Below, piece after piece: positions 1,555-24,853 of a stretch of 27,088 nucleotides of DNA. Location: positions 1-27,088 of the IMG/VR virus record IMGVR_UViG_3300031669_000201. One strand, written 5' to 3'. Origin of the DNA: a virus. The translations under genes were made by a program, and so were the position numbers. Under the pieces are notes generated by a model that saw only the letters and a program-made list of their open reading frames with translations, ran no database searches and was not told the origin of the DNA. Within the stretch, counting starts at the first letter, position 1. Each line of letters starts with the position of its first letter.

Positions 1555-1989
1555 ATGACAAGAATACCGAAAACAAAGTCTGTTGTGTCTTACGCATACT
1601 CTGTTTATGCCAATGGAGTTGCTGTTGGTAACTTACAAGGGTTTAACCCCTCTCAGAATCGTGCGTTAGATAGAGTTCGTCAATTGATGGATGAAGAGTC
1701 AGACATTGTTGAAATTGTACCTGGAAGAGGTGAAATAACTTTATCTGTCGACAGGCTTGAGCTCTACGACAAACCTATGATGACAGCATTGGGGTATGAT
1801 TCTGATATTTCCAAAATTGTTGACCCTATTCAAGTCCGAGAGACAATTACTGACCCCTCAACAAACAAAAAACGAGTAATAACATACGTTGATTGCTGGA
1901 TTCAAAATCAAAGCAAATCAATTAGAGAAGGTACAGCAACAGTCACTGAGACTGCTACTCTTTGGCCGACAAAGATTGTTATTGCATAA
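1555..1989 (+). CDS. Probable tail tube protein
   Basis: A 144-residue protein, about the size of myoviral tube subunits (T4 gp19 is somewhat longer). The tube subunit stacks as rings inside the sheath and surrounds the tape measure and DNA. The sequence suggests a compact beta fold: an opening strand (YAYSVYANGVAVG), a loop with QGFNPSQNR, a strand pair EIVPGRGEITLSVDRLELYD, and a final strand before WPTKIVIA. The EIVPGRGEITLSVDRLELY segment is similar to what I remember of tube and structural proteins in large myoviruses. A good AGGAGA site precedes the ATG. It sits downstream of the sheath and upstream of a chaperone-position gene, the expected order. Another small virion protein remains possible. 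Confidence 0.62.
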   Translation: MTRIPKTKSVVSYAYSVYANGVAVGNLQGFNPSQNRALDRVRQLMDEESDIVEIVPGRGEITLSVDRLELYDKPMMTALGYDSDISKIVDPIQVRETITDPSTNKKRVITYVDCWIQNQSKSIREGTATVTETATLWPTKIVIA

Positions 1990-3521: not shown

Positions 3522-3546
3522 AAATCATAATTAAAGAGGAATATTG

Positions 3547-4646: not shown

Positions 4647-5462
4647 ATGGATAGTTACGTAAATAAAGAAACTTGGCGAAAAATATTTAGCTGGCAAGTA
4701 ATGCCTCCTGCAGAGCTTTTTAGCGAGGTGGGAATAAAAAATAAGTTTCCAACTCCGGAGAAAGAATTAGCTTTACCCAGTGAGCAGCAGCTTAATGAGT
4801 TAAGAGAGATGGGCTTTTACAGTCTCAAATCTATGAAAAGAGACTGGAAATATTTACTGTTAAAAAAACTAGATGAGCATCCAGACCAGGCACTTAGTTT
4901 AGCCGAGATGGGTGGGGTTGGTAAAGTTCGCTGGTCGTTAGAATATGGGTTGGTGAATCTTGTGGATGGTATGTTAACAATATCGCAAAAGGGCCGTGAT
5001 GTTTATGATACTATTAACAACCGGTTTATACCCCTAAAGGAACAAGAAGCGTATACTCTTAAATTTTTTCAAAACGTATATGACGCTATTCTTGCCGAGG
5101 TACGAACTGCAGATGTAACCGATGTTTTTACGTTTTTTCCGAGAGTGCGCAGAGTGGGGGATTGTTATGTATTTGGAGGTTTATCAACATCTTTTTTGCA
5201 GTACGTAGCACGCGTTGAAAGATATGCTAAAGCAAACTTTGGCAAAACGATTGCAAAAACTCTTGATTTAGGGTTTCGGCCCACTTCGGCTGGGCTTGCT
5301 GCAGAACTTGCAGCAGATTATTTTCGTAGCAACGAGTCAAAAGTTATTGATCAGTTTAAACTTTCATATCCACGCGTTTCTATAACTCCTAGCATGCAGT
5401 TTGGGTTTGATCGATACGATGACCCTTCGTATCTTTACTATTATGGGAGAAATTTAAGATGA
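4647..5462 (+). CDS. NWRK-tagged protein with winged-helix-like domain
   Basis: First member of the tagged family (271 residues). The tag is preceded by a short extension: the ATG is followed by seven extra residues, then E-T-W10-R-K-I-F-S-W16-Q. A Pro-rich linker leads to a winged-helix-like region at about residues 63-125, where YLLLKKLDEHP, a LAEMGGVGKVRWSLEYGL helix pair and LTISQKGRDVY read as helix-helix-wing, with the K-G-R end common in winged-helix proteins. Residues 130-271 are of unknown fold, with two helices and FGGLSTSFLQYVARVERYA. The gene starts 12 bases after its predecessor, with AAGAGA upstream, and its end overlaps the next tagged gene by ATGA. It may bind DNA or mediate protein contacts; function is unknown. 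Confidence 0.75.
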   Translation: MDSYVNKETWRKIFSWQVMPPAELFSEVGIKNKFPTPEKELALPSEQQLNELREMGFYSLKSMKRDWKYLLLKKLDEHPDQALSLAEMGGVGKVRWSLEYGLVNLVDGMLTISQKGRDVYDTINNRFIPLKEQEAYTLKFFQNVYDAILAEVRTADVTDVFTFFPRVRRVGDCYVFGGLSTSFLQYVARVERYAKANFGKTIAKTLDLGFRPTSAGLAAELAADYFRSNESKVIDQFKLSYPRVSITPSMQFGFDRYDDPSYLYYYGRNLR

Positions 5463-6067
5463 CTAATTGGCGACAAATATTAAGTTGGTCGACGCCTGAG
5501 TTGCAAATTATTGATGAAAAAGAGCCGTTGGTTAAAAGTATTCAACCAGGCACTATGGCTATACGAGTATACTTTCATCAGTATACTGCTAATACGGTAG
5601 ATATTGATTTAGTAAGAATAGTGGGAGCAAAGGTGGGTCACACTGTTCTTTGGTATACATACACTTTGTATGGGCAGTGGAGTGTTGTTACGGGGATGAA
5701 AAGATTAAATAGGTTAATGAAATCACAGAATATTTATTTAGTTATTACAAATGACTTGAATACACTTGAAGAGAAAATGAGAGAATCAACTCTGAAACAA
5801 TTATCATGGAAGTTACCCAGTGAGCGACCAGAACTGGGTTCAACTGTTGAAGTTATTGCAGATGCAAAAACATTAAAAACGTTTAATATACACGATAATA
5901 TTACAGGTGAAAGAGGCACAGTTACGGAAATAAATTCTATGTATCCTTACGTATCTCCGTATGAGAGATTTTTAGGTTACATAGGAGTTGTCTTGAATGA
6001 TAAATCAAAACCATTTGTGTATGAATTTCCTTATAATAGGTGGAAGTATTTCCTGGTTAAGTTATAA
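5459..6067 (+). CDS. NWRK-tagged protein, two modules (second is SH3/KOW-like)
   Basis: Second tagged gene, 202 residues, starting in an ATGA overlap with the gene before it and preceded by GGGAGA at 5445-5450. The tag is M-T-N-W-R-Q-I-L-S-W at the N-terminus. Residues about 25-105 form a module of strands and helices that I do not recognise. At residues 112-118 the tag core recurs internally as L-K-Q-L-S-W-K, followed by a module closely matching the whole proteins at 8544 and 16168: G-S-T-V-E-V-I-A-D near the start, G-x-V-T-E-I in the middle, and F-P-Y-N-R-W-K-Y-F-L at the end. The gene therefore looks like a fusion of a tagged module with another once independent tagged protein. It lies directly before the tape measure gene. 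Confidence 0.8.
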   Translation: MTNWRQILSWSTPELQIIDEKEPLVKSIQPGTMAIRVYFHQYTANTVDIDLVRIVGAKVGHTVLWYTYTLYGQWSVVTGMKRLNRLMKSQNIYLVITNDLNTLEEKMRESTLKQLSWKLPSERPELGSTVEVIADAKTLKTFNIHDNITGERGTVTEINSMYPYVSPYERFLGYIGVVLNDKSKPFVYEFPYNRWKYFLVKL

Positions 6068-6109
6068 TAGAGTAGAGGTAGTAGCTAATTAAAAATAAGA
6101 AGTTAAGTT

Positions 6110-8542
6110 ATGGCAGATTTTCCAAATAATCCTATTGACGGGGTCGCAGGACAAGGAGTTCCCAACCCTATACATGGCGGTGAGAATATGGCCGCTGAAG
6201 CGGGGGGTGCAGCTGAAGGTTTAGTTGTGTTGCAGGGTATGATTCAAGATGCGTGGAAGTTATTGCAGACTATTGCAAACAATCCTCTTACGTCTGCTGT
6301 TGCAGTTAGACAAATTGGGCATATTTATGAAGATTCTGTTATTAAAAAACTTGAAAAGCATATTTCTTTGCTTAAAGAGCAGAACAAATTAACTGCTGAA
6401 CAGGAAAGAGTCATTAGACGAATGGCAACTGCTTCAGTAGACCGGATGGGAAAAGTATTTGCTTTAACAGGAGCTACGTCAGGAGCATTTTTTAAGATAG
6501 CTCAGTTACAGGAGCAACTAGAAATTACAGGCGCAAGGTCTTTATCATACGGAGCGGCAAATACATTTTCAGGTACAGCGCCCGGTGGTTCGGTAAATGC
6601 TCCTTGGTATTGGCCTCTTAAATCCGGTATTGGGCAGGACCCTTACAAAACTCAAGCCCTTGCTATGGAGAAAATTCAAAATACTCTTATGTGGAAGTAC
6701 GGGCCTGAAGTGGGTAGAATGGGTGAGGAGATGTATAAGTCTTTTTATCCCACTCTGAGGACTTCAAAGGCGTATGGAAATCCACAAAGTATGGCTAAGT
6801 TAATAGAGGCTATGGCGCCATTGTTCTACTCTCAAGGAATAAATCCTGGCGTACTCCCTGAACTGGTTGAGGGTTACAGAGCATTTGGCGGCACACCAGA
6901 GACAATGACAGGGTTTATAAACACTTTTTCAAAACAATACCAGCAAGGTCCTTTAATGAATCTTGGCGGTAATGCTGCTGAAACTCTTCAGGCTATTATG
7001 CAAGGAGAAGGACAGCTACGTCAAGGCGGAATGGCAAGAGTAGGTGGAGCTCCTCTATTATCGAGTTTAAAACTTGCTACTGGTTTAAGTACATTGACAG
7101 GTACAGAAGGGTCTCCGTTGCTTACTTTACCAAATGTTCGTGAGCTAACAAATCTAGTTGCACAGTTTGCTAATCCGTCAGGCACATTATCGAAAATGAT
7201 GGCTGTTACCGGCGGGTATGGAGGAGCTGTGAAGGGTGGTGAGTTTCTTTCTGGGCTTGCAAGAAATAACCCTATGGAGTTACTTAAAGATATAGTACAG
7301 TACTCTCAAAAGAGAGGGCAGACTAATCCGAACCTTATAACTCAGTCTTTGTCACAAGCCTTTACGGGTATGTCCCCACAACAAGTAAAAGAGCTTTCAG
7401 CTGCTCTGGCGAGTTTGGACACAAGAAAGTTATCAGAGATAAATTCTTTGCTTGATAAACAAATACCATCTTGGGATAAATTGCGTGATTCTGCTATTAG
7501 GACATTAAATGATATACCTAAGCCAATTCAAGAGGCTACAAAAAATATGCCTACATTGTTCACATACTTGGAGGCGTTTGCTCACAGTATTGGAATTCTA
7601 TCTGAACAAACCCTTGGAAAAGAATTCGGATATGCTGGAGGTGGGGCAGCTTTGTTAGGCGGTGGGTTGGGTGCTTATCTGATGGGTAAATTTGCTAGAA
7701 CTAATCCCCTGGCTGCGGTACTGGGGTATGGAACATTGAAAGGTTTAATGTCAGGTCAAAGCCCTACGGGCGGTGTGAGTCCAGGCGGAGGAAGTTCAGG
7801 CATGGGTGGCGGTATGATGGACTCTTTATTCTTAGCAATGATGTTGAAGCAGAATAAGTTTACACCGCCTATTTCGCCGTCGTCTATTTCAGGAAAATCA
7901 ATACTACTAGACCAGTATGAACAACCTCTTGTAGGCACTGGGCTTGCGTCAGGGAGATTTGCAGGTATGGGGTCGAAAGCATTAGCTATTGGAAAGACAG
8001 CAGGTAAATTACTTATGGTACTTGATGCTTACTCTACCATAAATAATGCTATTCAAGGAAAGAACATATCTTCTAATCTTATGAATACTGCAGCTGATGC
8101 CGCAATGATATTCGGCGGAGTTCCTGGTATAGTAGGCGGTCTTGCTCTTCATGCTTTAACTGCTTACACAGATGCAACTAGATATACTGGGCCTATTTAT
8201 CCTTCCACTCCGTATAACAATGCTGTGAGTGTCTCTGCATTTAAAACTGCACCTACAGAGGCTGACCTTAAAGCTAATAATATTGATGCGCTTATGTCTG
8301 GTCCAGGCGTATCGTTTATGGGTGCAATATCCCCAGGCAGTAAATTAAGACTGGCTGATTTTGGGCATTCGAAAACGTCAGAGATTGGTCAAAGTGGTGG
8401 AGACACAAGTGAGGGTCCTACATCAAATGTATTCATTCATGTTGTGGATGATAAAAATAATGTGCTTTCAGAGAAAATTATAAAACAAGGACAGCAAGCG
8501 AATCTTTACATTTCACTTGCAGGTGTGAGGTCGGTAGGTTAA
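6110..8542 (+). CDS. Tail tape measure protein
   Basis: At 810 residues this is the longest product in the window. The tape measure sets tail length and occupies the tube lumen until ejection. The sequence shows the usual mix: an N-terminal Gly/Ala/Asn-rich stretch, helical regions with coiled-coil character (LEKHISLLKEQNKLTAEQE, about residues 83-101), long Gln/Ala/Gly-rich stretches, and hydrophobic Gly-rich segments at about residues 506-550 (AGGGAALLGGGLGAYLMG) and about 650-690 (AADAAMIFGGVPGIVGGLAL) that could insert in the host membrane. It lacks an obvious lysozyme or peptidase domain. Position between the chaperone region and the baseplate genes fits. By the rough rule of about 0.15 nm per residue the tail would be near 120 nm; this is an estimate. 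The ribosome-binding site is weak. Confidence 0.85.
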   Translation: MADFPNNPIDGVAGQGVPNPIHGGENMAAEAGGAAEGLVVLQGMIQDAWKLLQTIANNPLTSAVAVRQIGHIYEDSVIKKLEKHISLLKEQNKLTAEQERVIRRMATASVDRMGKVFALTGATSGAFFKIAQLQEQLEITGARSLSYGAANTFSGTAPGGSVNAPWYWPLKSGIGQDPYKTQALAMEKIQNTLMWKYGPEVGRMGEEMYKSFYPTLRTSKAYGNPQSMAKLIEAMAPLFYSQGINPGVLPELVEGYRAFGGTPETMTGFINTFSKQYQQGPLMNLGGNAAETLQAIMQGEGQLRQGGMARVGGAPLLSSLKLATGLSTLTGTEGSPLLTLPNVRELTNLVAQFANPSGTLSKMMAVTGGYGGAVKGGEFLSGLARNNPMELLKDIVQYSQKRGQTNPNLITQSLSQAFTGMSPQQVKELSAALASLDTRKLSEINSLLDKQIPSWDKLRDSAIRTLNDIPKPIQEATKNMPTLFTYLEAFAHSIGILSEQTLGKEFGYAGGGAALLGGGLGAYLMGKFARTNPLAAVLGYGTLKGLMSGQSPTGGVSPGGGSSGMGGGMMDSLFLAMMLKQNKFTPPISPSSISGKSILLDQYEQPLVGTGLASGRFAGMGSKALAIGKTAGKLLMVLDAYSTINNAIQGKNISSNLMNTAADAAMIFGGVPGIVGGLALHALTAYTDATRYTGPIYPSTPYNNAVSVSAFKTAPTEADLKANNIDALMSGPGVSFMGAISPGSKLRLADFGHSKTSEIGQSGGDTSEGPTSNVFIHVVDDKNNVLSEKIIKQGQQANLYISLAGVRSVG

Positions 8543-8543
8543 A

Positions 8544-8849
8544 GTGAATAACTGGAGAGAGACATTTAGTTGGAAAGTACCTGAAATTAACGTAGGTGAC
8601 ACTGTAAGGGTAATTGCAACAAAAGAGATGTTAGTAGGAATTAACGTACAGAGTGCTGCAGTTTTAAATCATATCACCCGCGTAAACGGGATTGTACATT
8701 CTATTGATCCTAACATACCTTGGGAGTCAATTCATGCTACTGGTAGTGTACGAGTTGATTTTCAAGAGAAGCCCGGTGCTCCTTTCTTTGATAGAGTATG
8801 GTGGTTCCCGCTATCGGTATGGCAAGATTATTTAGAAATTATTGGTTAA
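8544..8849 (+). CDS. NWRK-tagged small SH3/KOW-like protein (subtype A)
   Basis: A 101-residue protein that begins with GTG one base after the tape measure stop, with TAGG shortly upstream. GTG is chosen because it places the tag (M-N-N-W-R-E-T-F-S-W) at the N-terminus exactly as in the other members. The rest is a small all-beta domain: V-G-D-T-V-R-V-I-A-T, then G-I-V-H-S-I-D, G-S-V-R-V-D-F and a final F-P-L-S-V-W-Q-D-Y-L-E-I-I. This layout is shared with the second half of the 5459 product and with the 16168 product (subtype A). SH3/KOW-like barrels bind nucleic acids or protein partners. The next gene starts six bases later. No function is assigned. Confidence 0.8.
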   Translation: MNNWRETFSWKVPEINVGDTVRVIATKEMLVGINVQSAAVLNHITRVNGIVHSIDPNIPWESIHATGSVRVDFQEKPGAPFFDRVWWFPLSVWQDYLEIIG

Positions 8850-8855
8850 AATAAA

Positions 8856-9677
8856 ATGGCAAAGCAAGTAAAAGTTCGATTATATACATATAAAAATAAT
8901 GAAACTGTAATTGTTAATACTCAGGCTCCTCAGGCGTCACAAACTCTTACAAATTCTCAATATCTACTAACTGTAACTGATAAAAACATTGTTTCAAAGC
9001 CTGATGGTAGATATGTTACAATAAATGGTTTTGATATTGTATCACCTGGAACCTATAAAGTTCAGTACGATACTAATTCAAATGCTTTTATTGTTGCTTC
9101 AAAGATAATTGTAGGAGTTTCAACAATATTCAATCCTATTGCTCAAGGTGTAGCAGAGAACGTTTATATTTTGAAATCATCAACTGCAAGTAGCAGTAAT
9201 AGTTCTGATACAGCTGTAGAAATATTTGAATTTTACTTAAATCCTCAGCACATAGTGCCAAATTATAAGAAACTTAATACAGAAATAAGGACAAGAGGAG
9301 GCTGGGAGGTGCAGCATTGGGGCAATGCATTGACTGACCTTCAGGTGCAGGGCATAAGCGGTGGATTGCATAAAGTTGTTGAAAACGGAGTATCAAGACT
9401 ACTGACTAAAGATGAATCAGTAACAGATTCAACTGCATGGCAAAAATTAGACAAGTTAAAAGCTATTTATGACAATGACCAGAGTGTTGCTAATCAGGAA
9501 GTGAAAACACTTTTAGGGATGAATTATTATAATCGATTTTTTATTGGGTATTTTAGCGACTTTACCGGACCTGAAGCCGATGCGTTACAACCTTACATGA
9601 TAAAATTTAGTTTTAATTTTAAAGTGACAGACGAAAAGCATATTACATCACTTACCGGAGGAAGTATTGTATTATGA
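8856..9677 (+). CDS. Baseplate/tail hub-proximal structural protein
   Basis: A 273-residue protein directly between the tape measure region and the baseplate hub. It has a beta-rich first half and, from about residue 123, a block EFYLNPQHIVPNYKKL followed by TEIRTRGGWEVQHWG and LTDLQVQGISGG. I recall this N-P-x(n)-R-T-R-G-G-[WF]-x(3)-H-W-G pattern from proteins next to the tape measure in other myoviruses, where they cap or initiate the tube at the baseplate (gp48/gp54 or XkdP-like role). The C-terminal region (LLGMNYYNRFFIGYFSDF, KFSFNFKVTDE) is again beta-rich. It ends in an ATGA overlap with a tagged gene. A LysM domain, present in some proteins of this position, is not evident. Confidence 0.6.
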   Translation: MAKQVKVRLYTYKNNETVIVNTQAPQASQTLTNSQYLLTVTDKNIVSKPDGRYVTINGFDIVSPGTYKVQYDTNSNAFIVASKIIVGVSTIFNPIAQGVAENVYILKSSTASSSNSSDTAVEIFEFYLNPQHIVPNYKKLNTEIRTRGGWEVQHWGNALTDLQVQGISGGLHKVVENGVSRLLTKDESVTDSTAWQKLDKLKAIYDNDQSVANQEVKTLLGMNYYNRFFIGYFSDFTGPEADALQPYMIKFSFNFKVTDEKHITSLTGGSIVL

Positions 9678-11350
9678 CACTTGGTTGGAGGAAGCAGTTG
9701 ACGAATAACTCTTTACAAACTCTTGTAAAAAATGCATGGCGGGAAGTAACGCCTGAAAGGTCTACATTTCAAGCAAATGACGAAATTGTGTTTGTCAAAT
9801 GTAATTCTTTTTTAATTGCAACTGACAGGTATTGGGCGGTATACGCAGGCAAGGTTGATGATACCGGAAAAGGCATGCTAATGTCAAAAACATTAACTAT
9901 TGTTAAATCGTTTACGCGAGCAAAACAAATTGCAGAAGAGTACGCAAGGGAATATGGGTACAAATATTTTGTATCAGCTGATGAGCAATTTTTATGGCAG
10001 CATGTGTTAAAAAACAAAAAAGTTAATGTAAATCAACAGAAAAGACTGGCGTGGGCTAATGTGCTTCCAACGAAAACTGAGTTTGAATTAAAAAATGGTG
10101 ACAACATAGTGTATTTGGAGGACACCTCATTTAACTTGTATGGACGTTTTGTTAGAGCGAAATGGTGCGTAGTTGCTGCAGTAGTTGAATGTTCTGAAGA
10201 GGCAATCATAGACTGGGTAGCTACACACCGGGAAAGGTTACAAACATTTAAGAGTTACGCCCATGCAAAAGAGTATGCAGAAAAATGCGTTAAGGAACAT
10301 CCAGATAATTGTTTCTATTTTGAATCAAACCAAGAACGTAGATACTTAGAAGAGAGGAGTCAGGCCCCAAACCAAACTGCCAGTCTTTCAAGCACACAAA
10401 AACTATCTTGGAAATTGCAAGAGTTAGAGATTTCTAATTTTAATTCTGGGGACCATATTGTATATATTGTTCCATGGTACAACCCAGAAGTACTTAACAC
10501 CCGCAGGTGGTCCGCCTACTCGGCGACTGTTGTAGAAGAGTCTAATCACAGGGGCGGTGAAGTTCAAAATATAAAACAACTAGGGGTATTTGAAGACAGG
10601 GAGAAAGCAAGAGAGTTTGCAGAGGAATATGCTAAAGAAAATGGGTATAAGTATTTTGAGTCTACTTCTGAAAAACGAGATAAAATAATTTTAGGTGGTA
10701 AAATGAGTAACATGGTAACAGCAAGCAATACAATTCCGCTTTCGCCTCAAATGATACAGGAAGGTAAATTAGAGATTGGAGATAATATATCTACAAACAT
10801 TACGCTTAAGACTCTATACAACGGAGTTAATCAAGATGTTTTTGTTGCAGGTAAATTATATGAAGTGCAGTCGATAAATAATTCTGATCCTTCTAATCCT
10901 GTTGTATTTGTTGAGTCAGAATTAGGTAAGTGGGGCATTCATTTTGATAAGAAAAAAGATGGTGGAGCGTACTATTTTTATAAAGAGGAACTATCACCTG
11001 AAGAAAAAGAGCTGAACTTGCTAGATGAACAGACTATAATGCTCGATGACAAGCCGCAGTATTTAATTGATGGCATATTAAAGTATTTTAGTACACATAA
11101 GGATAAAGTTACTGAAGGTATCCCCAGAACGGTTTTAATTCGGAGCGTACTGTCCTTTATGCCTTACATCCCCCCGGATAGAAAAAAGGAAGTAAACAAT
11201 GCAGTTGCTAACGCGGTAGAGGTGTTACGTGGGCATGGATATCTGGAAGTCACAGGAGATAATTTAGACCAGTTAAAGCTGACAGAAAAAGGTTTTGCGT
11301 TACTTAAGGCCAGAGAACCTGGAGTGTTTAAGGACTTAGAAAATGAATAA
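9674..11350 (+). CDS. NWRK-family protein with three tandem modules, SH3-like domain and winged-helix C-terminus
   Basis: The largest family member, 558 residues. It begins M-T-L-G-W5-R-K-Q-L, a variant tag, with a second Trp displaced to N-A-W22. Three related modules follow, at about residues 20-118, 121-232 and 243-340. Each has a W boundary (N-A-W22, L-A-W127, L-S-W246), then [AN][NS]-G-D-x-I-V-Y (N-D-E-I-V-F in the first), and ends in an A-K-E-[FY]-A-E-x-Y helix and a Y-K-Y-F-x-S or F-Y-F-E-S strand. Residues about 344-440 form a different beta-rich segment (GKLEIGDNIS; KLYEVQSI; KWGIHFD). Residues about 455-550 look like a winged helix ending L-T-E-K-G-F-A-L-L. GGAGG lies upstream. A possible internal start is listed separately. 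Function is unknown; fusion of several former genes is likely. Confidence 0.78.
   Translation: MTLGWRKQLTNNSLQTLVKNAWREVTPERSTFQANDEIVFVKCNSFLIATDRYWAVYAGKVDDTGKGMLMSKTLTIVKSFTRAKQIAEEYAREYGYKYFVSADEQFLWQHVLKNKKVNVNQQKRLAWANVLPTKTEFELKNGDNIVYLEDTSFNLYGRFVRAKWCVVAAVVECSEEAIIDWVATHRERLQTFKSYAHAKEYAEKCVKEHPDNCFYFESNQERRYLEERSQAPNQTASLSSTQKLSWKLQELEISNFNSGDHIVYIVPWYNPEVLNTRRWSAYSATVVEESNHRGGEVQNIKQLGVFEDREKAREFAEEYAKENGYKYFESTSEKRDKIILGGKMSNMVTASNTIPLSPQMIQEGKLEIGDNISTNITLKTLYNGVNQDVFVAGKLYEVQSINNSDPSNPVVFVESELGKWGIHFDKKKDGGAYYFYKEELSPEEKELNLLDEQTIMLDDKPQYLIDGILKYFSTHKDKVTEGIPRTVLIRSVLSFMPYIPPDRKKEVNNAVANAVEVLRGHGYLEVTGDNLDQLKLTEKGFALLKAREPGVFKDLENE
10693..10705 (+). promoter_or_regulatory. Possible internal ribosome-binding site and start inside the 9674 gene
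   Basis: AGGTGG at 10693-10698 lies four bases before an in-frame ATG at 10703 (residue 344 of the 558-residue product). The ATG falls between the third tandem module and the SH3-like plus winged-helix part, exactly where a separate gene would begin. Translation from here would give a 215-residue protein. The spacing is a little short, and an in-frame site of this quality can arise by chance, so use is unproven. Confidence 0.35.
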
Positions 11351-11633
11351 TTGGAGAAAAATATTTAGCTGGAAAATTATCGATGAGAAAAAAGCTCCTG
11401 AAGTGGGGGAGATTATCGAGGCTACTGCAGACATAGGCTATATTTTTGGTACAGTAAGAGCCGGTACGCTTGGTAAAATTATTAAGATTAAAACAGATTT
11501 AATTTCACAGCACCCTTACGCACCACCTACTACTGTGACAGACTACTACGTACATTGGGATGGTTATGCTGATCCTCCCGATGGCGGTGGATGGCTTATA
11601 TGGCAGCGTAAATATTTTAAGGTAATACGGTAA
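11343..11633 (+). CDS. NWRK-tagged small SH3/KOW-like protein (subtype B)
   Basis: A 96-residue protein overlapping the preceding stop by eight bases, with AAGGA about eight bases before the ATG. It starts M-N-N-W-R-K-I-F-S-W-K, the most typical form of the tag. The remaining 80 residues form a small beta barrel: V-G-E-I-I-E-A-T, then R-A-G-T-L-G-K-I-I-K-I, Y-Y-V-H-W-D-G-Y, and G-G-W-L-I-W-Q-R-K-Y-F-K-V. The A-G-T-L-G-K-[IV]-I-K-[IV] and V-x-W-x-G signatures recur in the 18961 product (subtype B) and resemble KOW/SH3-like domains, where a Gly turn is followed by alternating hydrophobics. One base separates it from the baseplate hub gene, so the two should be translated together. No function is assigned. 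Confidence 0.82.
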   Translation: MNNWRKIFSWKIIDEKKAPEVGEIIEATADIGYIFGTVRAGTLGKIIKIKTDLISQHPYAPPTTVTDYYVHWDGYADPPDGGGWLIWQRKYFKVIR

Positions 11634-11634
11634 G

Positions 11635-13857
11635 ATGGCAAAAGCATTACAACAGAAAGTAAATCATTATTGGCCTCAGGCATTGGTTATTTTTGTAAAG
11701 AAATTTCAGGCCAATAAATCTGTGACTGATGAAACAGATTTAATTGGTGTGGCAAGTAACGTGGGTAATGTAAAGGAGATAAAAAGTCTTAACATTTCGA
11801 GAACAATAAAAAACTCTCCTGGTACTTTTACTCTATCAATTGTTGACACAGCAAATAGGTTTTCTATACCGGATAATGCTGACGTGGAAATAAAGGCTCT
11901 TAATAAAGGAAGTAAGAGGTCAACCTTAAAGATAACCAACACAGTACAGCAAAAAGTTCAAACTGTTGATCCTGCAAAAGCTTCTAATAATCCATCGGAT
12001 TACAAAAATACTTCGAACACAACTACTTACGGTACTGAAACTTCCGACGTAGCTAACGCATACGGGTTTACTAGTTTTGATAATTGGTGTGATGAGATGA
12101 ATGTAGCGGTAGAGAGTCTTGCAGGTAATGATATTGGTGAGCGTTACGTTACCCAGCTTATTAGAAGTCGACAAACAAACAAAATAGCTGAAAGATGGGC
12201 AATTGATAAAGAAGGCAACACTATTATTGTGTCTGCATCTGAGGCAGAGGAAACGGCTTTAATTACAGAGTTGACTGCTAATATAACTGCAGTTTCTGTT
12301 ATGGAATTTTCAATTGCAAAAAAATCGTTACTAACTGTGCCGTCGACTTCTAAAAACAGAGTAGGAGCACAAAAAAACTATAAAGTAATTGGAGTAAAGA
12401 ATAGAGTTTTTGATACAACGTATAAAGATACAGACGAACAGGGTAATGTTTCAGGGGTATTTAATAGAGGTAAATGTGCAATTTCTCCAATGGATAGAGT
12501 AATAATATTTTTGCCTGAAAGATATAGTACGGGTAAAAATAAAAAGCTTGTGAGAGCTTTTACTGGTGTCGTAAGTACCGCTCAACAGGGTTATTCAGAA
12601 AACCAAAATATGATTGAAATAAAAGGTGAAGACGTTACTAAATATTTACAAGTATCAGTTGTGAATGTTAATCCTGCTTTACCTCTTGATGCAGTCACTG
12701 TTATAGACCAAAATCCGCAAGACTACATAACAATATTTTCAAATATTTTTAAAGGTATGTCGATACCGAATATCATTAAAATACTGTTACTAGGAAATAA
12801 TCCTTCTGATAATACTGCCGGTAGAATTACTGGTGTGGGTGTGTACAGAATTGCAGGCACCCCTGACCAGACGGATATCACGTTTAATGCAAATACGGGT
12901 GTTTTTGAAAGAACCGATAAACGAAGCAAAGGGGATGGTAAGCATACAATAACGGTTGATTTCAGGCAGGTTTTAGGTGAGTTATTTTCTCAGAACACAG
13001 TTCATGTATTGAATCCTTTTTCAAGTGCAGCAAAATTAAAAGGGTATTCGGCGTATAGATTACAGTTACAAGCATCTTGGTCTTTTCAGCAGGCAGATTT
13101 TAAGACGCGGAGAGATTTAATATTTCAAGCAGCAGAAGAAATTGGATTTGTTTTTTACGCAGATAGAAACGGGGAGCTGTGGTTTCGTCAGCCTTACTTT
13201 GATAATTCTCATATCATATGTGCTAAAAATCCGAATGTGTATATTGTTAAAAATGAGGAAATAGTAAGTTTTGGGTTTATCGAAGACGATTCGCATATTT
13301 ATTCATCTGTGTACGTAACAACTGAACCTGATTTTGGTGCTGAGTCTTTAACATCTTTAGGGTTTTATACTGCTTCTTACAGAGATGATAATACGGTTTT
13401 AAAATATGGTCAGCGAATATTTGTCGGGTCAAATCCTGTTATACGCACAGGGTCAAAACAAAGTATTCAGTTGTACGCAAAATCTTTATTACAGAGGTTG
13501 TTAGCAGGAAAATACCAAGGCGAAATAACCGTACCTGGAAGAGTGGAGTTAGACCCGGGCTACCCGATTTTTATCCCAATTCGAAACATGATTTATTCTG
13601 CTGAAACAGTAGGCCATTCTCTCAATTATGCAGGAGAATATTTAACAACAATAAGCTTATGTTACGGTAGAAAACCTTGGGAACATTTATCGGAATTATT
13701 TACTTTTGCACAAGAGGACGAGGTATACGAGACGGACGGTCAGCTCTATTCCGATACTATTGAATTAAATACAGGAACAGTTCTTCCCTCTACAAGCCAA
13801 TCTAATACTAGTCAGCAAACATCGAATTTACCGATTACTGACAACCCTAACAAATAA
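11635..13857 (+). CDS. Baseplate hub protein (gp27/gpD-like)
   Basis: A 740-residue central hub protein, which would trimerise at the end of the tube and hold the spike. Supporting segments are an N-terminal beta domain with ISRTIKNSPGTFTLSIVD (about residues 56-73), RAFTGVVSTAQQGYSE followed by IEIKGEDVTKYL (about residues 301-338), then DLIFQAAEEIGFVFYADRNGE and LWFRQPYF (about residues 492-521), a pattern common in gpD and gp27-type hubs. The C-terminal part has GRVELDPGYPIFIPIRN, typical of the second hub barrel domain, and a Ser/Thr/Asn-rich tail. It is longer than T4 gp27 (about 390 residues), with an inserted region near residues 100-240. The downstream spike gene is separated from it by a tagged gene. 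There is no sign of an enzymatic domain. Confidence 0.75.
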   Translation: MAKALQQKVNHYWPQALVIFVKKFQANKSVTDETDLIGVASNVGNVKEIKSLNISRTIKNSPGTFTLSIVDTANRFSIPDNADVEIKALNKGSKRSTLKITNTVQQKVQTVDPAKASNNPSDYKNTSNTTTYGTETSDVANAYGFTSFDNWCDEMNVAVESLAGNDIGERYVTQLIRSRQTNKIAERWAIDKEGNTIIVSASEAEETALITELTANITAVSVMEFSIAKKSLLTVPSTSKNRVGAQKNYKVIGVKNRVFDTTYKDTDEQGNVSGVFNRGKCAISPMDRVIIFLPERYSTGKNKKLVRAFTGVVSTAQQGYSENQNMIEIKGEDVTKYLQVSVVNVNPALPLDAVTVIDQNPQDYITIFSNIFKGMSIPNIIKILLLGNNPSDNTAGRITGVGVYRIAGTPDQTDITFNANTGVFERTDKRSKGDGKHTITVDFRQVLGELFSQNTVHVLNPFSSAAKLKGYSAYRLQLQASWSFQQADFKTRRDLIFQAAEEIGFVFYADRNGELWFRQPYFDNSHIICAKNPNVYIVKNEEIVSFGFIEDDSHIYSSVYVTTEPDFGAESLTSLGFYTASYRDDNTVLKYGQRIFVGSNPVIRTGSKQSIQLYAKSLLQRLLAGKYQGEITVPGRVELDPGYPIFIPIRNMIYSAETVGHSLNYAGEYLTTISLCYGRKPWEHLSELFTFAQEDEVYETDGQLYSDTIELNTGTVLPSTSQSNTSQQTSNLPITDNPNK

Positions 13858-13860
13858 GAT

Positions 13861-13905
13861 TTGTGTAATTGGTCAAGAACTGTAATAATTAAAGAGAGAA
13901 TATAA
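13861..13905 (+). other. Possible remnant of a tag-coding start (14 codons)
   Basis: Twelve bases at 13861-13872 match the start of the gene at 13919 except for TTG instead of ATG, and would read [L/M]-C-N-W before diverging into S-R-T-V-I-I and a stop at 13903. It lies one codon after the hub stop and in the same frame as the hub gene. No ribosome-binding site is visible. It may be the decayed 5' end of a duplicated tagged gene, or chance; it is too short to be certain. Confidence 0.3.
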
Positions 13906-13918
13906 AAAATTAAGTAAA

Positions 13919-14728
13919 ATGTGTAATTGGCGTAAAATATTAAGCTGGCAAATTCAAAACGATTTTGAAGCGTTTGAAAAAATACTACAACGTAACAAAT
14001 GCAGTTATGTTATTGAAGATGATATGTTAATAGTTAATAATGACGGGTATGTTGATTTACGACATCTTACCTCTCTACCAGATAATGTTCAATTTAATAA
14101 TAGAGGTGATGTTTATTTATCTTCTCTTACCTCTCTACCAGATAATATTCAATTTAATAATGACGGGTATGTTGATTTATCTTCTCTTACCTCTCTACCA
14201 GATAATATTCAATTTAATAATAGAGATGATGTTTATTTATCTTCTCTTACTTCTCTACCAGATAATATTCAATTTAATAATAGAGGTGATGTTTATTTAT
14301 CTTCTCTTACCTCTCTACCAGATAATAAATACGAAATGTTTCATAACGGTGGAGTTGTTGACTACAACGGTGATAGACAAGAATTTAATCCTCAGAGAAG
14401 AGAGACAAGTTTAAGGTTTAGCTGGCAAATGTCGTCTATTGAAAATCCAGAAGAACTGATTGGTACGTTGGTTAAGTTGGAAACATATCCATATGATTTT
14501 GCTGTTGTTGTGATGCTTGATTTTTTAAACCGGTACAGTGTTCGGGTTTGGGGGCGTTGGGCCGGCAGCGCAAAAGAAGCCTTAGAAGTTTATCAAAACG
14601 AAGTGAAGACATACGTAAACGAAAAGACACATACGATGCGAGATAGAAATTTTAAGAATCGTCAATTCGTGGAAGTGCCAATTGAAAATATATATAAAAC
14701 TTTTGAAGTTATACAGAGAGTTTTTTAA
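13919..14728 (+). CDS. NWRK-tagged protein with leucine-rich-like 20-residue repeats
   Basis: A 269-residue protein starting M-C-N-W-R-K-I-L-S-W-Q. Residues 12-39 are a short helix-strand segment. Residues 40-139 contain five near-identical 20-residue units, each with D-V-Y-L-S-S-L-T-S-L-P-D-N and F-N-N (some with Y-V-D-L), a leucine-rich-like pattern expected to form a curved solenoid for protein binding. A second tag core (S-L-R-F-S-W169-Q) opens a C-terminal module with G-T-L-V-K-L and Y-S-V-R-V-W-G, recalling the SH3-like members. The ribosome-binding site is weak, and 61 bases separate it from the hub stop, the longest gap before any tagged gene. Its stop overlaps the start of the spike gene by one base (TAATG). 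Confidence 0.78.
   Translation: MCNWRKILSWQIQNDFEAFEKILQRNKCSYVIEDDMLIVNNDGYVDLRHLTSLPDNVQFNNRGDVYLSSLTSLPDNIQFNNDGYVDLSSLTSLPDNIQFNNRDDVYLSSLTSLPDNIQFNNRGDVYLSSLTSLPDNKYEMFHNGGVVDYNGDRQEFNPQRRETSLRFSWQMSSIENPEELIGTLVKLETYPYDFAVVVMLDFLNRYSVRVWGRWAGSAKEALEVYQNEVKTYVNEKTHTMRDRNFKNRQFVEVPIENIYKTFEVIQRVF
14036..14335 (+). repeat. Five tandem 60-bp coding repeats
   Basis: Five in-frame 60-base units in the 13919 gene. Units 1 and 3 carry a GACGGGTATGTTGAT version, while units 2, 4 and 5 carry AGAGGTGATGTTTAT or a one-base variant, so a 120-base higher-order pattern is visible. The CTTACCTCTCTACCAGATAA core is nearly identical in all units, including third codon positions, which points to recent expansion or ongoing conversion. 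The last unit diverges after the core. Confidence 0.95.
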
Positions 14729-15873
14729 TGTTTAGATTTAGAGAATTATATCCTAAAGATTTAAATTCGCATGCTATTCAAAAGGATTTGAATAAGACAA
14801 TTCGACTGGCAAGAATTACAAGTGTTAATCCGCAGGAAGGAATAGTTACTATACAGTGGTTTGATAGACCGGGGATGAGAACTGATGTTGTGCTTACGCA
14901 ACCTTCAGCTAATTCGTATTTTATTCCGAAGAAAGGCACAATTGTACTAGTTGGTTTTGATAGCAGAGACCAGGCTAGAATCTTACAGTATATACCTATT
15001 GGTCAATCTACAAGAGTAAAGAAATTAAAAACTCTTCCCAAATTGCAAGAAGATGATTCATTTATTGAGTCGGGAGGCTCATACGTATATGTGAGAGCTA
15101 ATGGTGATATAATAATTACAACAGCAACTGAAAGCTACTTGTTATTGGAAAATTCTACAGGTACGTTAAAGTCGGAAACGACAAATTGGAAGGCACTAAC
15201 TCAGGCTGGGTACGAGTATTTAGGACTTATTAAACGATTCCAAGTTAATACAGATGGCACAAGTTCCTTAAATTTAATTCAAGATACGCTTGGTAAGTAT
15301 TTAACAGAATATAACTTAAAGATTTTAGAGACAGCTGACGACGAGACAGGTGTTCAAGGTTTAGAAAGTCCAATTGTCAGTATAAGTTTTGGAACAGTTG
15401 TTGATAGTCAAGGCATTGTTGTAGCAAAAAATGATGCTCTTGCACCATCACCGGAAAAACAGCTTGCCGCAAGAATTGACTTAAAATCTGGAATACGTAT
15501 TGATATTGATAAGGAAGGAAGAGTATCTGTATCGAATGCAAAAATAAATATAAATGAGGCAGAAGTTGATACTTCAGACCCAGATATTAGTCTTAAACTT
15601 GAAACTGCAAGTCAGAAAGGAAAAAGAGGTCAACATGTAGCAAGAGAGCATGATAAAATATCTATTCCGATTTCAAGTTCTTTTACAGATGAAAATCATA
15701 CAGGGTTAACAGAACTTGCATCTACAAATGTGCAGGTTCTACAAATCTTAGCTGCAGCTATTATGTCACCAACAGGCCCTTGTACTCTTAATCCTGCATT
15801 GATACCTGCCAATACAAAACTGCAAGGTGAGATTACGGAAGGTGCAGATAATATGTATGTAGGAGATAAATAG
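14728..15873 (+). CDS. Baseplate spike protein (gp5/gpV-like)
   Basis: A 381-residue protein. The N-terminal region, about residues 22-95 (IRLARITSVNPQEGIVTIQW, split by FDRPGMRTDVVL and ending in GTIVLVGFDSRDQARILQYIP), has the OB-fold pattern of gp5/gpV spike proteins, including the G-T-x-V-L-V-G-F strand. Then come beta-rich stretches (SYVYVRANGDIIITTATESYLLLE; RIDLKSGIRIDIDKEGRVSV) that would suit the intertwined needle. No lysozyme domain is inserted, unlike T4 gp5. The C-terminal 60 residues are less regular. It follows the hub gene, separated by one tagged gene, and is followed one base later by a small protein with an HxH motif, possibly the tip. This is the spike that pierces the outer cell layer. 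Confidence 0.72.
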   Translation: MFRFRELYPKDLNSHAIQKDLNKTIRLARITSVNPQEGIVTIQWFDRPGMRTDVVLTQPSANSYFIPKKGTIVLVGFDSRDQARILQYIPIGQSTRVKKLKTLPKLQEDDSFIESGGSYVYVRANGDIIITTATESYLLLENSTGTLKSETTNWKALTQAGYEYLGLIKRFQVNTDGTSSLNLIQDTLGKYLTEYNLKILETADDETGVQGLESPIVSISFGTVVDSQGIVVAKNDALAPSPEKQLAARIDLKSGIRIDIDKEGRVSVSNAKININEAEVDTSDPDISLKLETASQKGKRGQHVAREHDKISIPISSSFTDENHTGLTELASTNVQVLQILAAAIMSPTGPCTLNPALIPANTKLQGEITEGADNMYVGDK

Positions 15874-15874
15874 C

Positions 15875-16171
15875 ATGAAAATGAATAAAACGAGACTAGG
15901 TACAGCGTTGGCAAATGCTGTGTTATCTGTACCAGCTGTTGAATCTACGTACGGGGTTGATAAGACGTTCGGTGATTTAATGACCGCCGACCAGAAAGAA
16001 AATTTATCTAATTCAATGAATAATTTAGCGAGTGCTATAATTGATGAAATTACCACTTATGCCGAAACTACTGTTCTAATGGCCTCCCATACTCATACTG
16101 GCGTAATGACTGGTGGTGGAATTTCAGGACCCCCTGTATCAGGTCAAACGGAGAAGGGAACTGTAGCATGA
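15875..16171 (+). CDS. Small baseplate/spike-tip-like protein with HxH motif
   Basis: A 98-residue protein. Residues 71-90 read S-H72-T-H74-T-G-V-M-T-G-G-G-I-S-G-P-P, which I recall at the C-terminus of many gpV-type spikes, where the two His residues of three chains bind an iron ion at the needle tip. Here it is on a separate small gene directly after the spike gene, suggesting that spike and tip are split, or that this is an accessory spike protein. The N-terminal half is helical (GTALANAVLSV; LSNSMNNLASAIIDEIT). AGGAGA precedes the ATG at good spacing. An alternative ATG lies two codons downstream. The end overlaps the next tagged gene by ATGA. Confidence 0.6.
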   Translation: MKMNKTRLGTALANAVLSVPAVESTYGVDKTFGDLMTADQKENLSNSMNNLASAIIDEITTYAETTVLMASHTHTGVMTGGGISGPPVSGQTEKGTVA

Positions 16172-16446
16172 CAAACTGGAGAAAAATATTTAGCTGGGAA
16201 ATTCAACGAGAAACTATTCATGAAGGTAACACAGTTAGTGTTATAGCTGATGAATCTTTACTTAGAACAATTAGCGGAACTAAAGCAGCCGGCTTAGTTG
16301 GGATTGTTACACAAATTTTCCCCTACGGGTGGTCTAATTACGAATATTCAGGAGTTGTTAATGTGCTTTTTGAGATAGCGAATAAAGGTCAGGTGTTTGG
16401 GTTTCCCTTTAACAAATGGTACGATTTTTTGGAGATTATAGAGTAA
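16168..16446 (+). CDS. NWRK-tagged small SH3/KOW-like protein (subtype A)
   Basis: A 92-residue protein beginning in an ATGA overlap with its predecessor, with AAGGGA eight bases upstream. It starts M-T-N-W-R-K-I-F-S-W-E. The barrel region reads G-N-T-V-S-V-I-A-D, L-R-T-I-S-G, G-I-V-T-Q-I, V-V-N-V-L-F-E, and ends F-P-F-N-K-W-Y-D-F-L-E-I-I. It is the closest relative of the second half of the 5459 product and also matches the 8544 product. Its tag-coding DNA is nearly the same as that of 11343, differing at the AAT/AAC codon, yet the bodies belong to different subtypes, so tag and cargo appear to have mixed. The next gene begins two bases after its stop. Function is unknown. Confidence 0.82.
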   Translation: MTNWRKIFSWEIQRETIHEGNTVSVIADESLLRTISGTKAAGLVGIVTQIFPYGWSNYEYSGVVNVLFEIANKGQVFGFPFNKWYDFLEIIE

Positions 16447-16448
16447 CT

Positions 16449-17042
16449 ATGCCAAATAGTTTTGAAATAGCGCAAAATTTAATAGCAGAAAATGGTTGGG
16501 ATGTTACTCCAGCCTACGTTCAGGTGTTTATTGTGTTGTCACAACCTGTGAGAAGAGCTATATATGATTTAATTGAGTCTCAGGAGGCCGCTTTGAAAAT
16601 TCAAAGAAGCTCTCTACAGGTACTATCAAAAAAAGGCGATGTTTTAGGTGAAAGAATTGCAATTATACAGACAGCTGTTGACTCAGCATTATTACCTGTA
16701 AGAAAGGCTCTGCAGATTGTACCTATGGATACTTTAGTCAATGATTTTCCAGCTCTTGAAGATACTGCTAAATCAATTTCTGATTTTCTTAGCAATATAG
16801 TTCAAGCCACACCCTTGAAAATACCTGCACTAACAGCGCAGATTATGGGGTTTGGGGGATTTGATTTTTTTGAAGGTGTGAGAGATTTTAAAGATTTACA
16901 AAACAAGTTAGACGATTTGGAATTTAGAGCTGCTAGGGCAGCTTCGCTTTCAAATTATGCGTCAACAGGATTGGCTTATATAGATAATTTGTTGAGTCAA
17001 ATTACATTATATAAAGATATACTTAATTTTCTCGGAACATAA
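16449..17042 (+). CDS. Helical baseplate-region hypothetical protein
   Basis: A 197-residue protein when started at the ATG at 16449, two bases after the preceding stop. An in-frame ATG at 16416 would overlap the tagged gene by 31 bases and add eleven residues; I prefer the later start, although neither ribosome-binding site is strong. The protein is almost all helical, with heptad-like segments (IYDLIESQEAALKIQRSSLQVLSKK, discontinuous at Gly, and FKDLQNKLDDLEFRAARAASL) suggesting coiled coil. A Gly/Phe-rich hinge (MGFGGFDFFEG) lies near residue 140. I do not recognise the family. It stands between spike and gp25-like genes and may be a minor baseplate component. The sequence shows no signal peptide. 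Confidence 0.6.
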   Translation: MPNSFEIAQNLIAENGWDVTPAYVQVFIVLSQPVRRAIYDLIESQEAALKIQRSSLQVLSKKGDVLGERIAIIQTAVDSALLPVRKALQIVPMDTLVNDFPALEDTAKSISDFLSNIVQATPLKIPALTAQIMGFGGFDFFEGVRDFKDLQNKLDDLEFRAARAASLSNYASTGLAYIDNLLSQITLYKDILNFLGT

Positions 17043-17044
17043 AA

Positions 17045-17530
17045 ATGGATATTCTTAATACAGTAAATTGTGACCATGTTGTTGGCAGTCCTGCAGTCTC
17101 CTATAAATTAGAAGATTGTCCGAGATGTCATGGACAAGGCACTTACGGAAGTTTTGGTTTGTCTAAAAGCGGAAGTTTGGAGTTTGTAAGTGGAATTGAC
17201 CAACTGGTACAGCAAATAAAAAAAATACTAACAGAAAAAAGAAGACAATCAGGTTATGGTTTTGACTACTCTGTACTAAAGGGTGTAATTGATTCGTCAA
17301 AATTGCTTGCAGTAAAAAATGAAGTGATTAGATGTTTAACTTATTATAAAAATTTACAACAGACAAATAAACAAAATGGTTTTTATTATAACCCCGATGA
17401 GGAAATATACAGTGTCGATGCACCTACAATAATACAGGACTCAACGGACTTACGAAAGGTTGCGGTTTCTGTTAATGTGTATGCTGTATCAGGTACCAGT
17501 GCAACTGTAACAGTGCCGATTATTAAATAG
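17045..17530 (+). CDS. Baseplate wedge protein, gp25-like, with N-terminal zinc motif
   Basis: A 161-residue protein. Residues 9-28 hold C9-D-H11 and C25-P-R-C28-H-G-Q-G, a likely zinc site resembling one DnaJ-type knuckle. The body, about residues 50-161, has GIDQLVQQIKKILTEKRRQ, then G-Y-G-F-D-Y and an I-D-S-S-K helix, and a final beta region (VAVSVNVYAVSGTSATVTVPI), which fits the gp25/gpW wedge family. I recall gp25-like proteins from large phages with the same leading C-P-R-C-x-G-x-G segment. gp25 forms part of the wedge core with gp6 and gp53 in T4. It stands directly upstream of the J-like gene, the normal gp25-gp6/J order. GGAA lies upstream of the ATG. Confidence 0.65.
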   Translation: MDILNTVNCDHVVGSPAVSYKLEDCPRCHGQGTYGSFGLSKSGSLEFVSGIDQLVQQIKKILTEKRRQSGYGFDYSVLKGVIDSSKLLAVKNEVIRCLTYYKNLQQTNKQNGFYYNPDEEIYSVDAPTIIQDSTDLRKVAVSVNVYAVSGTSATVTVPIIK

Positions 17531-17542
17531 AAGGTTAAGAAA

Positions 17543-18946
17543 ATGTCAAAGACAGTAACAGAGATAAAAAAGAATATTGCGGGGTATATCAACGTTGATT
17601 ATCCTAGCCTTGATACCAGCGAAGGTTCACCAGCTGATGATATTATAATTAACCCACCATCTCAAGAGATTTCAAAGTTTTACGATGCTTTGGATACGGT
17701 GTCGGAAGACCAGTCAAAAGACACTGCTACTTCCCAAGGCATAGACGTTTTACTGAATAACGTAGGGCTAACTCGTAAAAGTGCATTAACTTCAAAAGGA
17801 ACAATTACATTTTTTGTTTCAGCTAAGCCTACCATTGATATTTCTATTCCGTTAGGTACGTTAGTAGGTACTTTGCCTTCAAATAATACAGTAGGTATTC
17901 AGTTTTTGACCACACAAAATGTAACAATGTACGTAACAATAATTTCGCAATATTACAATCCTTCAACGAATAAGTACGAAGTTTCAGTACCTATTGAGTC
18001 TGTAGACGTCGGTAGTTCTAATAACGTAGGTCCTTCTACAATCGTAAGTATTATAAATTCCGTCTCCGGAATTGACGGGTGTTACAATCTTAAAAGCACC
18101 ACAGGCGGAATTGATACAGAGTCTGATGCTAGTGCTATTACGAGGCTTGAAGCAAAATGGTTTGGCGGAACGTTGGGTACTCTCGGTGGGATTTACACAA
18201 CAATTAACAATAACTCAAACGTGCTTGACGCTCTTGTAGTAGGAAATGGGGAAGCGGGAAGAGACGAATTTGGTGCTATTGATATTTTTGTGAAGGGTCA
18301 GATTCAAACGCAAAGGACGGATATTGTAACTCCGATTCCAAATGCTGTTATTCCTGATATAATATTTGCTAAACAGCCAGTTGTCAATGATGGAATACTT
18401 TCCGTAATGTCGAGTGCAAGCGGGTCAATCCCAAGTGCAAACTACGGCCTTTTGCAAGACACGGGACCTTATGGTGGCTCACTCGATTCTGTTGATTCTT
18501 TAGTGTGGATGAGCCCGCAAAATAGTAATGACCATGGTACGGTGTTTGTTACATACGTGTACAACAGTTTGATACTTAATTTGCAGGACATTTTTATTCA
18601 AGAGTCACAAAATATTCCTGAAGTATCAATACTTGTCAAACAAGCAACAGACATTCCAATTGATGTCACATGTACATTACAGATTTTATCAGGGCATGAT
18701 ATTACGACAGTTCAAAACAATGTTTCAAATGCGTTAGCAGACTTTTTTGCCGCATTAACAATCGGTCAAGAAATTCAGCAAAGTGATGTTATCGGGGTTA
18801 TTATTGGAGTAGATGGGGTTGATGACGTAAAGGTTCCATTGGATAAATTTCAAAGCAGTGATAATCTAATTGCTCAGAATAGTTCAAATAACTTAACTAT
18901 CCCTAATACGTCTTATGGATCCCTTGGTGCTCTTATCGTTCAGTAA
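17543..18946 (+). CDS. Baseplate wedge protein, J/gp6-like
   Basis: A 467-residue protein with the layout of the baseplate J family. The N-terminal region has helical D-T-S-E-G-S-P-A-D-D and ISKFYDALDTVSEDQSKDTA, followed by G-I-D-V-L-L-N-N-V-G-L-T-R (about residues 66-78), typical of this family, then a beta region including GTITFFVSAK and IPLGTLVGT. Next is a G-G-I-D-T-E-S-D-A-x(3)-R segment (about residues 188-199), also a J hallmark. The C-terminal part has IPIDVTCTLQILSG followed by an A-L-A-D-F-F-A-A helix and DVIGVIIGVDGVDDVKV, again matching J proteins. It forms the wedge ring that holds the baseplate closed before contraction. AAGG is upstream of the ATG. Confidence 0.82.
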   Translation: MSKTVTEIKKNIAGYINVDYPSLDTSEGSPADDIIINPPSQEISKFYDALDTVSEDQSKDTATSQGIDVLLNNVGLTRKSALTSKGTITFFVSAKPTIDISIPLGTLVGTLPSNNTVGIQFLTTQNVTMYVTIISQYYNPSTNKYEVSVPIESVDVGSSNNVGPSTIVSIINSVSGIDGCYNLKSTTGGIDTESDASAITRLEAKWFGGTLGTLGGIYTTINNNSNVLDALVVGNGEAGRDEFGAIDIFVKGQIQTQRTDIVTPIPNAVIPDIIFAKQPVVNDGILSVMSSASGSIPSANYGLLQDTGPYGGSLDSVDSLVWMSPQNSNDHGTVFVTYVYNSLILNLQDIFIQESQNIPEVSILVKQATDIPIDVTCTLQILSGHDITTVQNNVSNALADFFAALTIGQEIQQSDVIGVIIGVDGVDDVKVPLDKFQSSDNLIAQNSSNNLTIPNTSYGSLGALIVQ

Positions 18947-18960
18947 TATGGAATAAGGAA

Positions 18961-19230
18961 ATGAAGGCTAACTGGAGAAAGGTGTTTTCGTGGGCTGAGC
19001 AAGAAGCGGGGCCATACGTGGGAGGTACAGTCAAATTACTCGTGCCAAAGCGGTGGATAAGTATGTCTGTACCAGCTGGCACGCTAGGGAAGGTAATAAA
19101 AGTTTATGACAACTCATATGAGGTGGCATGGAAGGGGTTTCCTACACTACAGCAAATGTTCCCAAGGGATGGTTACGTAAAAGATGCTGGGTGGAGAGTG
19201 TCTAAACAAGATGTTCAATTTTTAGGCTAA
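18961..19230 (+). CDS. NWRK-tagged small SH3/KOW-like protein (subtype B)
   Basis: An 89-residue protein, the shortest member. It begins M-K-A-N-W-R-K-V-F-S-W-A, with one extra residue before N-W and different codons for Ser and Phe than other copies. The barrel region reads V-G-G-T-V-K-L-L-V-P, V-P-A-G-T-L-G-K-V-I-K-V, Y-E-V-A-W-K-G-F, and ends in G-W-R-V-S-K-Q-D-V-Q-F-L, matching the 11343 product. AAGGA ends one base before the ATG, so the functional site may be GGA at 18950-18952 instead. An ATG at 18948 in another frame stops after two codons. It is 14 bases after the J-like gene and three bases before the next baseplate gene. Function is unknown. Confidence 0.8.
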   Translation: MKANWRKVFSWAEQEAGPYVGGTVKLLVPKRWISMSVPAGTLGKVIKVYDNSYEVAWKGFPTLQQMFPRDGYVKDAGWRVSKQDVQFLG

Positions 19231-24845: not shown

Positions 24846-24853
24846 GCTTTATA

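Follow-up and report, generated by a model that had tools for sequence, protein, structure and literature searches.

How one short N-terminal peptide came to be present on dissimilar proteins, and what it does there, is the question raised by a 27,088-nucleotide stretch of DNA from an uncultured giant-type phage (IMG/VR record IMGVR_UViG_3300031669_000201), hereafter the window. An earlier note on this DNA listed eight genes bearing such a peptide, the tag, dispersed among the tail genes. All eight were recovered as open reading frames (ORFs); seven carried a clear tag. The tag was found to have two halves with different distributions. The balance of probability leans slightly toward its being a two-part virion-loading leader that would work like the capsid-targeting sequence (CTS) of phage T4.

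The motif [NT]-W-R-[KQE]-[ITV]-[FL]-S-W was present near the N-terminus, within the first 16 residues, in 7 of the 28 window proteins. Its excess over chance was evaluated by shuffling each protein and searching residues 1-20 with W[RK][KQE]x{1,2}[FL][SAGK]; seven of the 28 proteins matched, whereas the shuffles averaged 0.011 and never exceeded 1. Moreover, a motif-free comparison of residues 2-20 gave a high-scoring 8-mer common to 21 of 378 protein pairs, whereas two internal windows of the same proteins gave 1 and 0 pairs. The codons varied synonymously, as the earlier note had said: at degenerate positions, 41 of 88 same-residue comparisons among the tags had different codons. Hence, the peptide and not the DNA is conserved.

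The tagged genes, all on the + strand, are named here by their first position. Gene 4647 (4647..5462; 271 amino acids, aa; tag TWRKIFSW at 4671-4694) had a body for which no relatives were found and which matched no other tagged body in the window. Gene 5459 (5459..6067; 202 aa) carries NWRQILSW at 5465-5488. An SH3-like module follows the tag in gene 8544 (8544..8849; GTG start; 101 aa; NWRETFSW at 8550-8573), gene 11343 (11343..11633; 96 aa; NWRKIFSW at 11349-11372) and gene 18961 (18961..19230; 89 aa; NWRKVFSW at 18970-18993), and an SH3-like barrel was modelled for gene 16168 (16168..16446; 92 aa; NWRKIFSW at 16174-16197). Gene 13919 (13919..14728; 269 aa; NWRKILSW at 13925-13948) matched no other tagged body in the window with either half. 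Gene 9674 (9674..11350; 558 aa), composed of three paralogous repeats, is a weak member because its GWRKQL (9683-9700) lacks the following S-W. The claim that the bodies all differ held for 4647 and for both halves of 13919 and was otherwise overstated: clear paralogy links 8544 and 16168 with the C-terminal half of 5459, the body of 11343 is related to that of 18961, and the repeats of 9674 are related to one another. Gene 13919 also contains 60-bp tandem repeats (14065-14327; 4.4 copies, 92% matches) encoding 20-aa leucine-rich units of the LTSLPDNIQFNN type, and their high DNA identity suggests a recent expansion.

The second half of the tag, [KR]-x-[LF]-[SA]-W, recurred in four internal copies, each at the start of a domain and within three tagged proteins. 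KQLSW in gene 5459 (aa 113-117; 5795-5809) precedes the SH3-like module, KRLAW (aa 123-127; 10040-10054) and KLSW (aa 243-246; 10400-10411) in gene 9674 precede repeats 2 and 3, and RFSW in gene 13919 (aa 166-169; 14414-14425) precedes a module that reappears in a 734-aa protein of related contigs. Shuffling gave 0.69 internal sites for the window, where four were seen; this excess alone is modest because the shuffle maximum was also four. All four sites are in tagged proteins.

The tag was also present in related phages. An IMG/VR scan with the pattern M-x-N-W-R-[KQE]-x-[FL]-S-W gave two real contigs, G008 (33.8 kb) and G009 (51 kb), whose overlapping parts are near-identical. They cover a head and packaging region with a large terminase (phrog_17415, 3.7e-18) resembling those of huge phage LR745208 and of the NWYKKA contigs considered below (6e-24 and weaker); the tag is thus not confined to tail genes. 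Their tags include MSNWRKVLSWQ (117-aa protein), KKNWREILSWQ (93 aa), MKNWRQILGWQ (506 aa) and MPTNWRQILKFGW (115 aa), with NWRQILKFGW as a variant. Other candidates were rejected: the exact pattern NWRKI[FL]SW gave 8 matches, all judged to be chance; the broader tag gave 7 matches in a genome-collection scan that look like chance; and an additional viral match (L082) was judged to be chance since it sits in an unrelated phage. The terminases and SH3 modules had diverged too far for their alignments to be used in a scan.

The long proteins of these contigs showed what the internal copies accompany. The 506-aa protein contains NKLSWQ, SKLSWQ and FKLSWQ, and in the 734-aa protein an LKLSWK close to the N-terminus is followed by SKLSWQ, LKLSWQ, QKESWV and EKESWA; both are chains of unrelated domains, with K-L-S-W or K-E-S-W ahead of successive ones. 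Furthermore, a 1594-aa protein of G009 carries GSLKLSWQ from residue 632 and then a DMP19 DNA-mimic domain (677-780; 5.5e-11), its single LKLSWQ site lying 39 residues ahead of that domain. The module after RFSWQ in gene 13919 resembled that after SKLSWQ in the 734-aa protein (2e-7), and the 506-aa protein ends in a module that resembled the SH3-like modules of the window (about 1e-5). Modules that form single tagged genes in the window are therefore found again in G008 and G009, there as KLSW-separated domains of long proteins.

Ordinary paralogy, in which the tag would be the first part of a duplicated SH3-like domain or of a mobile cassette spread among the tail genes, agrees with the paralogues noted above. 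It was evaluated against 25 modules cut at the motif from the window and G009. These fell into many groups, most without detectable mutual similarity, and included DUF6166, found after LKLSWQTF in the 734-aa protein (E 1e-24); to these unrelated modules is added the DMP19 domain behind its own site. A stand-alone DUF6166 homologue in huge phage LR756511 starts without the motif, indicating that motif and module are separable. In an AlphaFold model of 16168 built from a seven-sequence alignment, the mean predicted local distance difference test score (pLDDT) was 82 and an SH3-like barrel began at residue 22; residues 1-10 had a mean pLDDT of 48, and there was no secondary structure before residue 22. 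The tag is thus predicted to lie, disordered, outside the folded domain in the one body modelled, 16168. Foldseek gave weak SH3-like matches to this model (best PDB E 0.025, ribosomal protein L21e-like chains), a five-sequence model of 11343 reached a pLDDT of 37, and a profile of the window SH3 modules did not match the SH3-like tagged protein of phage G. The dissimilar modules, the disordered tag outside the barrel and the DUF6166 homologue without the motif largely refute paralogy, to which we assign a very slight probability. Neither the absence of the tag from related phages nor its being the first strand of one common fold was observed, and the addressing or docking interpretation of the earlier note was partly supported; its author had missed the internal copies of the second half.

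The two halves differed in where they occur. With the near-identical G008 and G009 proteins counted once, a tryptophan six residues before the final tryptophan, which marks the N-W-R half, was present at 10 of 13 N-terminal sites and at 0 of 12 internal sites (Fisher p 1e-4). In five window proteins this tryptophan is residue 4 and the final one is residue 10. The T4 CTS likewise has an aromatic residue at position 4. Its targeting function is mainly assigned to residues 4 and 7 and its processing function to residues 8 and 10 (PMC9026906), a division to which that of the tag halves appears similar; the letters differ, and the likeness of layout is suggestive. Since the second half recurs between domains without N-W-R, a processing site is suggested in addition to an address.

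In the proposed mechanism, the first half, M-x-N-W-R, would be an address read by the prohead core, the scaffold or another partner in virion assembly, and would place the tagged proteins in the virion. The phage head-maturation protease would recognise the second half, K-x-[FL]-[SA]-W, and cleavage there would free the cargo once it had been loaded. Fused cargo domains would need one address and one processing site ahead of each domain, which would explain why the second half alone recurs inside multidomain proteins. The cargo would consist of small proteins, replaceable by one another, that probably enter the host together with the DNA.

The main rival to such a cleaved leader is an uncleaved short linear docking motif, each copy of which would bind a partner common to all of them, such as the scaffold, tube, baseplate or a host protein; a fused protein would then bind this partner several times. 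This would cover both N-terminal and internal copies as well as the conserved aromatic and hydrophobic residues, and the disorder of the tag in the model is what a linear motif should show. However, the confinement of N-W-R to N-termini would be left unexplained, as would the regularity with which internal copies mark the start of a domain, in several cases after an S-rich linker. The docking motif is considered unlikely, although it is the strongest of the alternatives.

Several points weigh against the virion-loading leader. The 123-aa and 734-aa proteins of G008 and G009 have the second half only, near the N-terminus and without N-W-R. The window and these contigs cover different genome regions, and their apparent kinship therefore rests on common modules and the tag. 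Neither a protease nor a capsid gene was recognised in the window, G008 or G009, and no prohead protease is known to cut at K-x-L-S-W. Moreover, the tag was not an especially amphipathic helix: its hydrophobic moment fell inside the shuffled range, and the idea that it acts as such a helix was dropped.

That ordinary hydrophobic moment also bears on another explanation, namely a leader directing proteins within the infected cell, to a membrane or phage compartment, and not into the virion. Its N-terminal position, its hydrophobic and basic residues and the scattering of tagged genes over the genomes of relatives would suit this role; the internal copies at domain junctions would not, nor would the location of tagged genes, which lie among tail genes in the window and close to the terminase in relatives. 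We regard this as improbable.

The virion-loading leader was compared with known systems. Both the T4 CTS (on IPI-III and Alt) and the tag are N-terminal leaders of about 10 residues, common to proteins with unrelated bodies, and ADP-ribosyltransferases (ARTs) are among the tagged cargo in the relatives of the window. However, the T4 leader ends in Glu at the cleavage site and the tag in S-W, the processing-like half of the tag also lies between the domains of multidomain proteins, and packaging and cleavage are proven for T4 and predicted here. The tag is not classed as a T4 CTS, but as a leader that probably works like one. The comparison with T4 made in the earlier note was apt, the more so as phage G-group relatives carry effector-type cargo behind leaders specific to their lineages, but it overlooked the recurrence of the second half between domains.

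Polyvalent proteins (Iyer et al., 2017; PMC5512222) are multidomain and virion-delivered, with swappable effector domains, and in concept the 506-aa and 734-aa proteins look like them. In the parts of that description considered here, no motif like the tag was seen to recur between domains, and the processing of one example, P1 DdrB, was ascribed to an internal metallopeptidase domain. DUF6166 was the sole known family among the modules of the 506-aa and 734-aa proteins. The head proteins of SPN3US and phiKZ have N-terminal propeptides cut by the prohead protease, sometimes at several copies of a motif; unlike the tag, these propeptides are mostly long (111-254 residues), and the cited site is cut after Glu, E-124 (PMC10052503).

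Analogous leaders were found in the phage G group. The leader MNWYKKAQ occurred in seven IMG/VR contigs. In one of them, nine consecutive ORFs start with NWY[KR][KR]A and differ in their bodies, among which are a receiver-like domain and a P-loop kinase; NWYKKA was present on 9 of 50 ORFs against 0.1 expected. The major capsid protein of this contig shared 55% identity with its phage G counterpart and also matched LR745208, Tunturi_5, Rctr197k and cluster C mycobacteriophages, the same set that was matched by the sheath and baseplate proteins of the window. ART-PolyVal proteins with NWYKKA were found in two contigs, and two NWYKKA contigs encode a head-maturation protease (phrog_18299; 1.9e-19 and 4.4e-15) close to the gene for the major capsid protein. 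Phage G itself carries MKRL[IV]KK[AS] leaders (RLxKKA) on 14 of 671 ORFs against 0.5 expected, and a looser pattern was present on 24 of 659 proteins (L023, L024, L029-L048). The looser leader was found on 5 of 8 ART-like proteins and on 19 of 651 others (p 2e-6, an optimistic value because this looser pattern and the crude ART pattern were written after some of the proteins had been seen). A published survey counted at least 10 ARTs in phage G and argued that myovirus virions often contain packaged ARTs (PMC9503650). The leaders of the group (NWYKKA, MK[IL]xK[IV][AS] and MKRL[IV]KK[AS]), like the tag, are short N-terminal peptides on unrelated genes, are statistically strong, and occur in phages with capsid and tail genes similar to those of the kin of the window; unlike the tag, they have other letters and no established internal copies. 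Descent from one ancestral leader is conceivable.

Runs of NWY[KR][KR]A on unrelated genes, and also a second leader type, MK[IL]xK[IVLAT][AS], were seen in huge phages of the phage G group (G001/L061:5257-8683, G002/L067, G006/L052 and L054, L018 and L020). In LR756501, a 735-kb phage (L088), a T4-like start, [YF]-x-x-[FYL]-x(1,2)-E, was present on 9 of 49 proteins (2.8 by shuffling), which may point to a T4-type leader among the largest phages.

A broader reading is put forward tentatively, at somewhat less confidence than the leader itself. Huge phages of the phage G group may have a general addressing and processing code, diversified by lineage, in which a leader particular to each lineage would mark dozens of unrelated proteins for the virion; in the lineage of the window, the processing half would also divide chains of cargo domains into individual effectors for injection. 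Huge phages have hundreds of unknown genes, and it is an open question which of these yield packed and injected proteins. If the code exists, a leader read from the sequence would list the injected proteins of a phage directly, answering this question lineage by lineage and in a testable manner. It would also suggest a route by which many effectors are delivered from one long polypeptide, and would offer new pairs of leader and cleavage site for loading proteins into large capsids. T4 already has leaders of such a kind, and the inter-domain sites are the unusual extension. The author of the earlier note knew of no prior description, and none of these leaders was found described in the open-access papers searched, which are part of the whole literature.

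The tagged genes of the window lie in a tail module akin to that of phage G. On the + strand are a tail sheath gene orthologous to gp178 (30..1172; phmmer 6e-17), a tail tube-like gene similar to gp179/gp180 (1555..1989; 1e-14), a probable tape measure gene (6110..8542) assigned by its position after the tube and chaperone slot relative to gp183, a tail gene similar to gp184 (8856..9677; 1e-5), a hub-like gene similar to gp185 (11635..13857; 5e-12), a gene similar to gp187 (17045..17530; 1e-4) and to a Tunturi_5 baseplate protein, and a baseplate J/wedge gene orthologous to gp188 (17543..18946; 9e-39). The gene order (sheath, tube, hub, baseplate) is that of gp178-gp188. Phage G has no annotated small genes from gp183 to gp189, indicating that the tagged genes of the window are additions between conserved tail genes. 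Single-protein scans of IMG/VR found no close relatives of the window sheath, baseplate J or hub, a search of G008 and G009 for baseplate J found nothing, and no tag was seen in LR745208, which has tail genes in common with the window.

Minor features were also recorded. In G009, L079:13144-16848, L080:763-4617 and their neighbours, long genes (1234-1335 aa) have apparent secretion signal peptides at their start, one of them with phage tail repeat and YadA-like motifs; such a make-up is unusual among phage structural proteins. Inside the tail operon of the window, an ORF with a TTG start (3544-4395) had a weak calcineurin-like phosphoesterase match (0.0022, below the cut-off). A small protein at 15875-16171 has a GpV Apex motif (5.5e-6) and likely belongs to the tip region of the baseplate spike. 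After the tail fibre genes come two glycosyltransferase genes (23616-26053; Glycos_transf_1, 1e-9 and 1e-4), followed by a gene with a peptidoglycan-binding domain (26065-26844).

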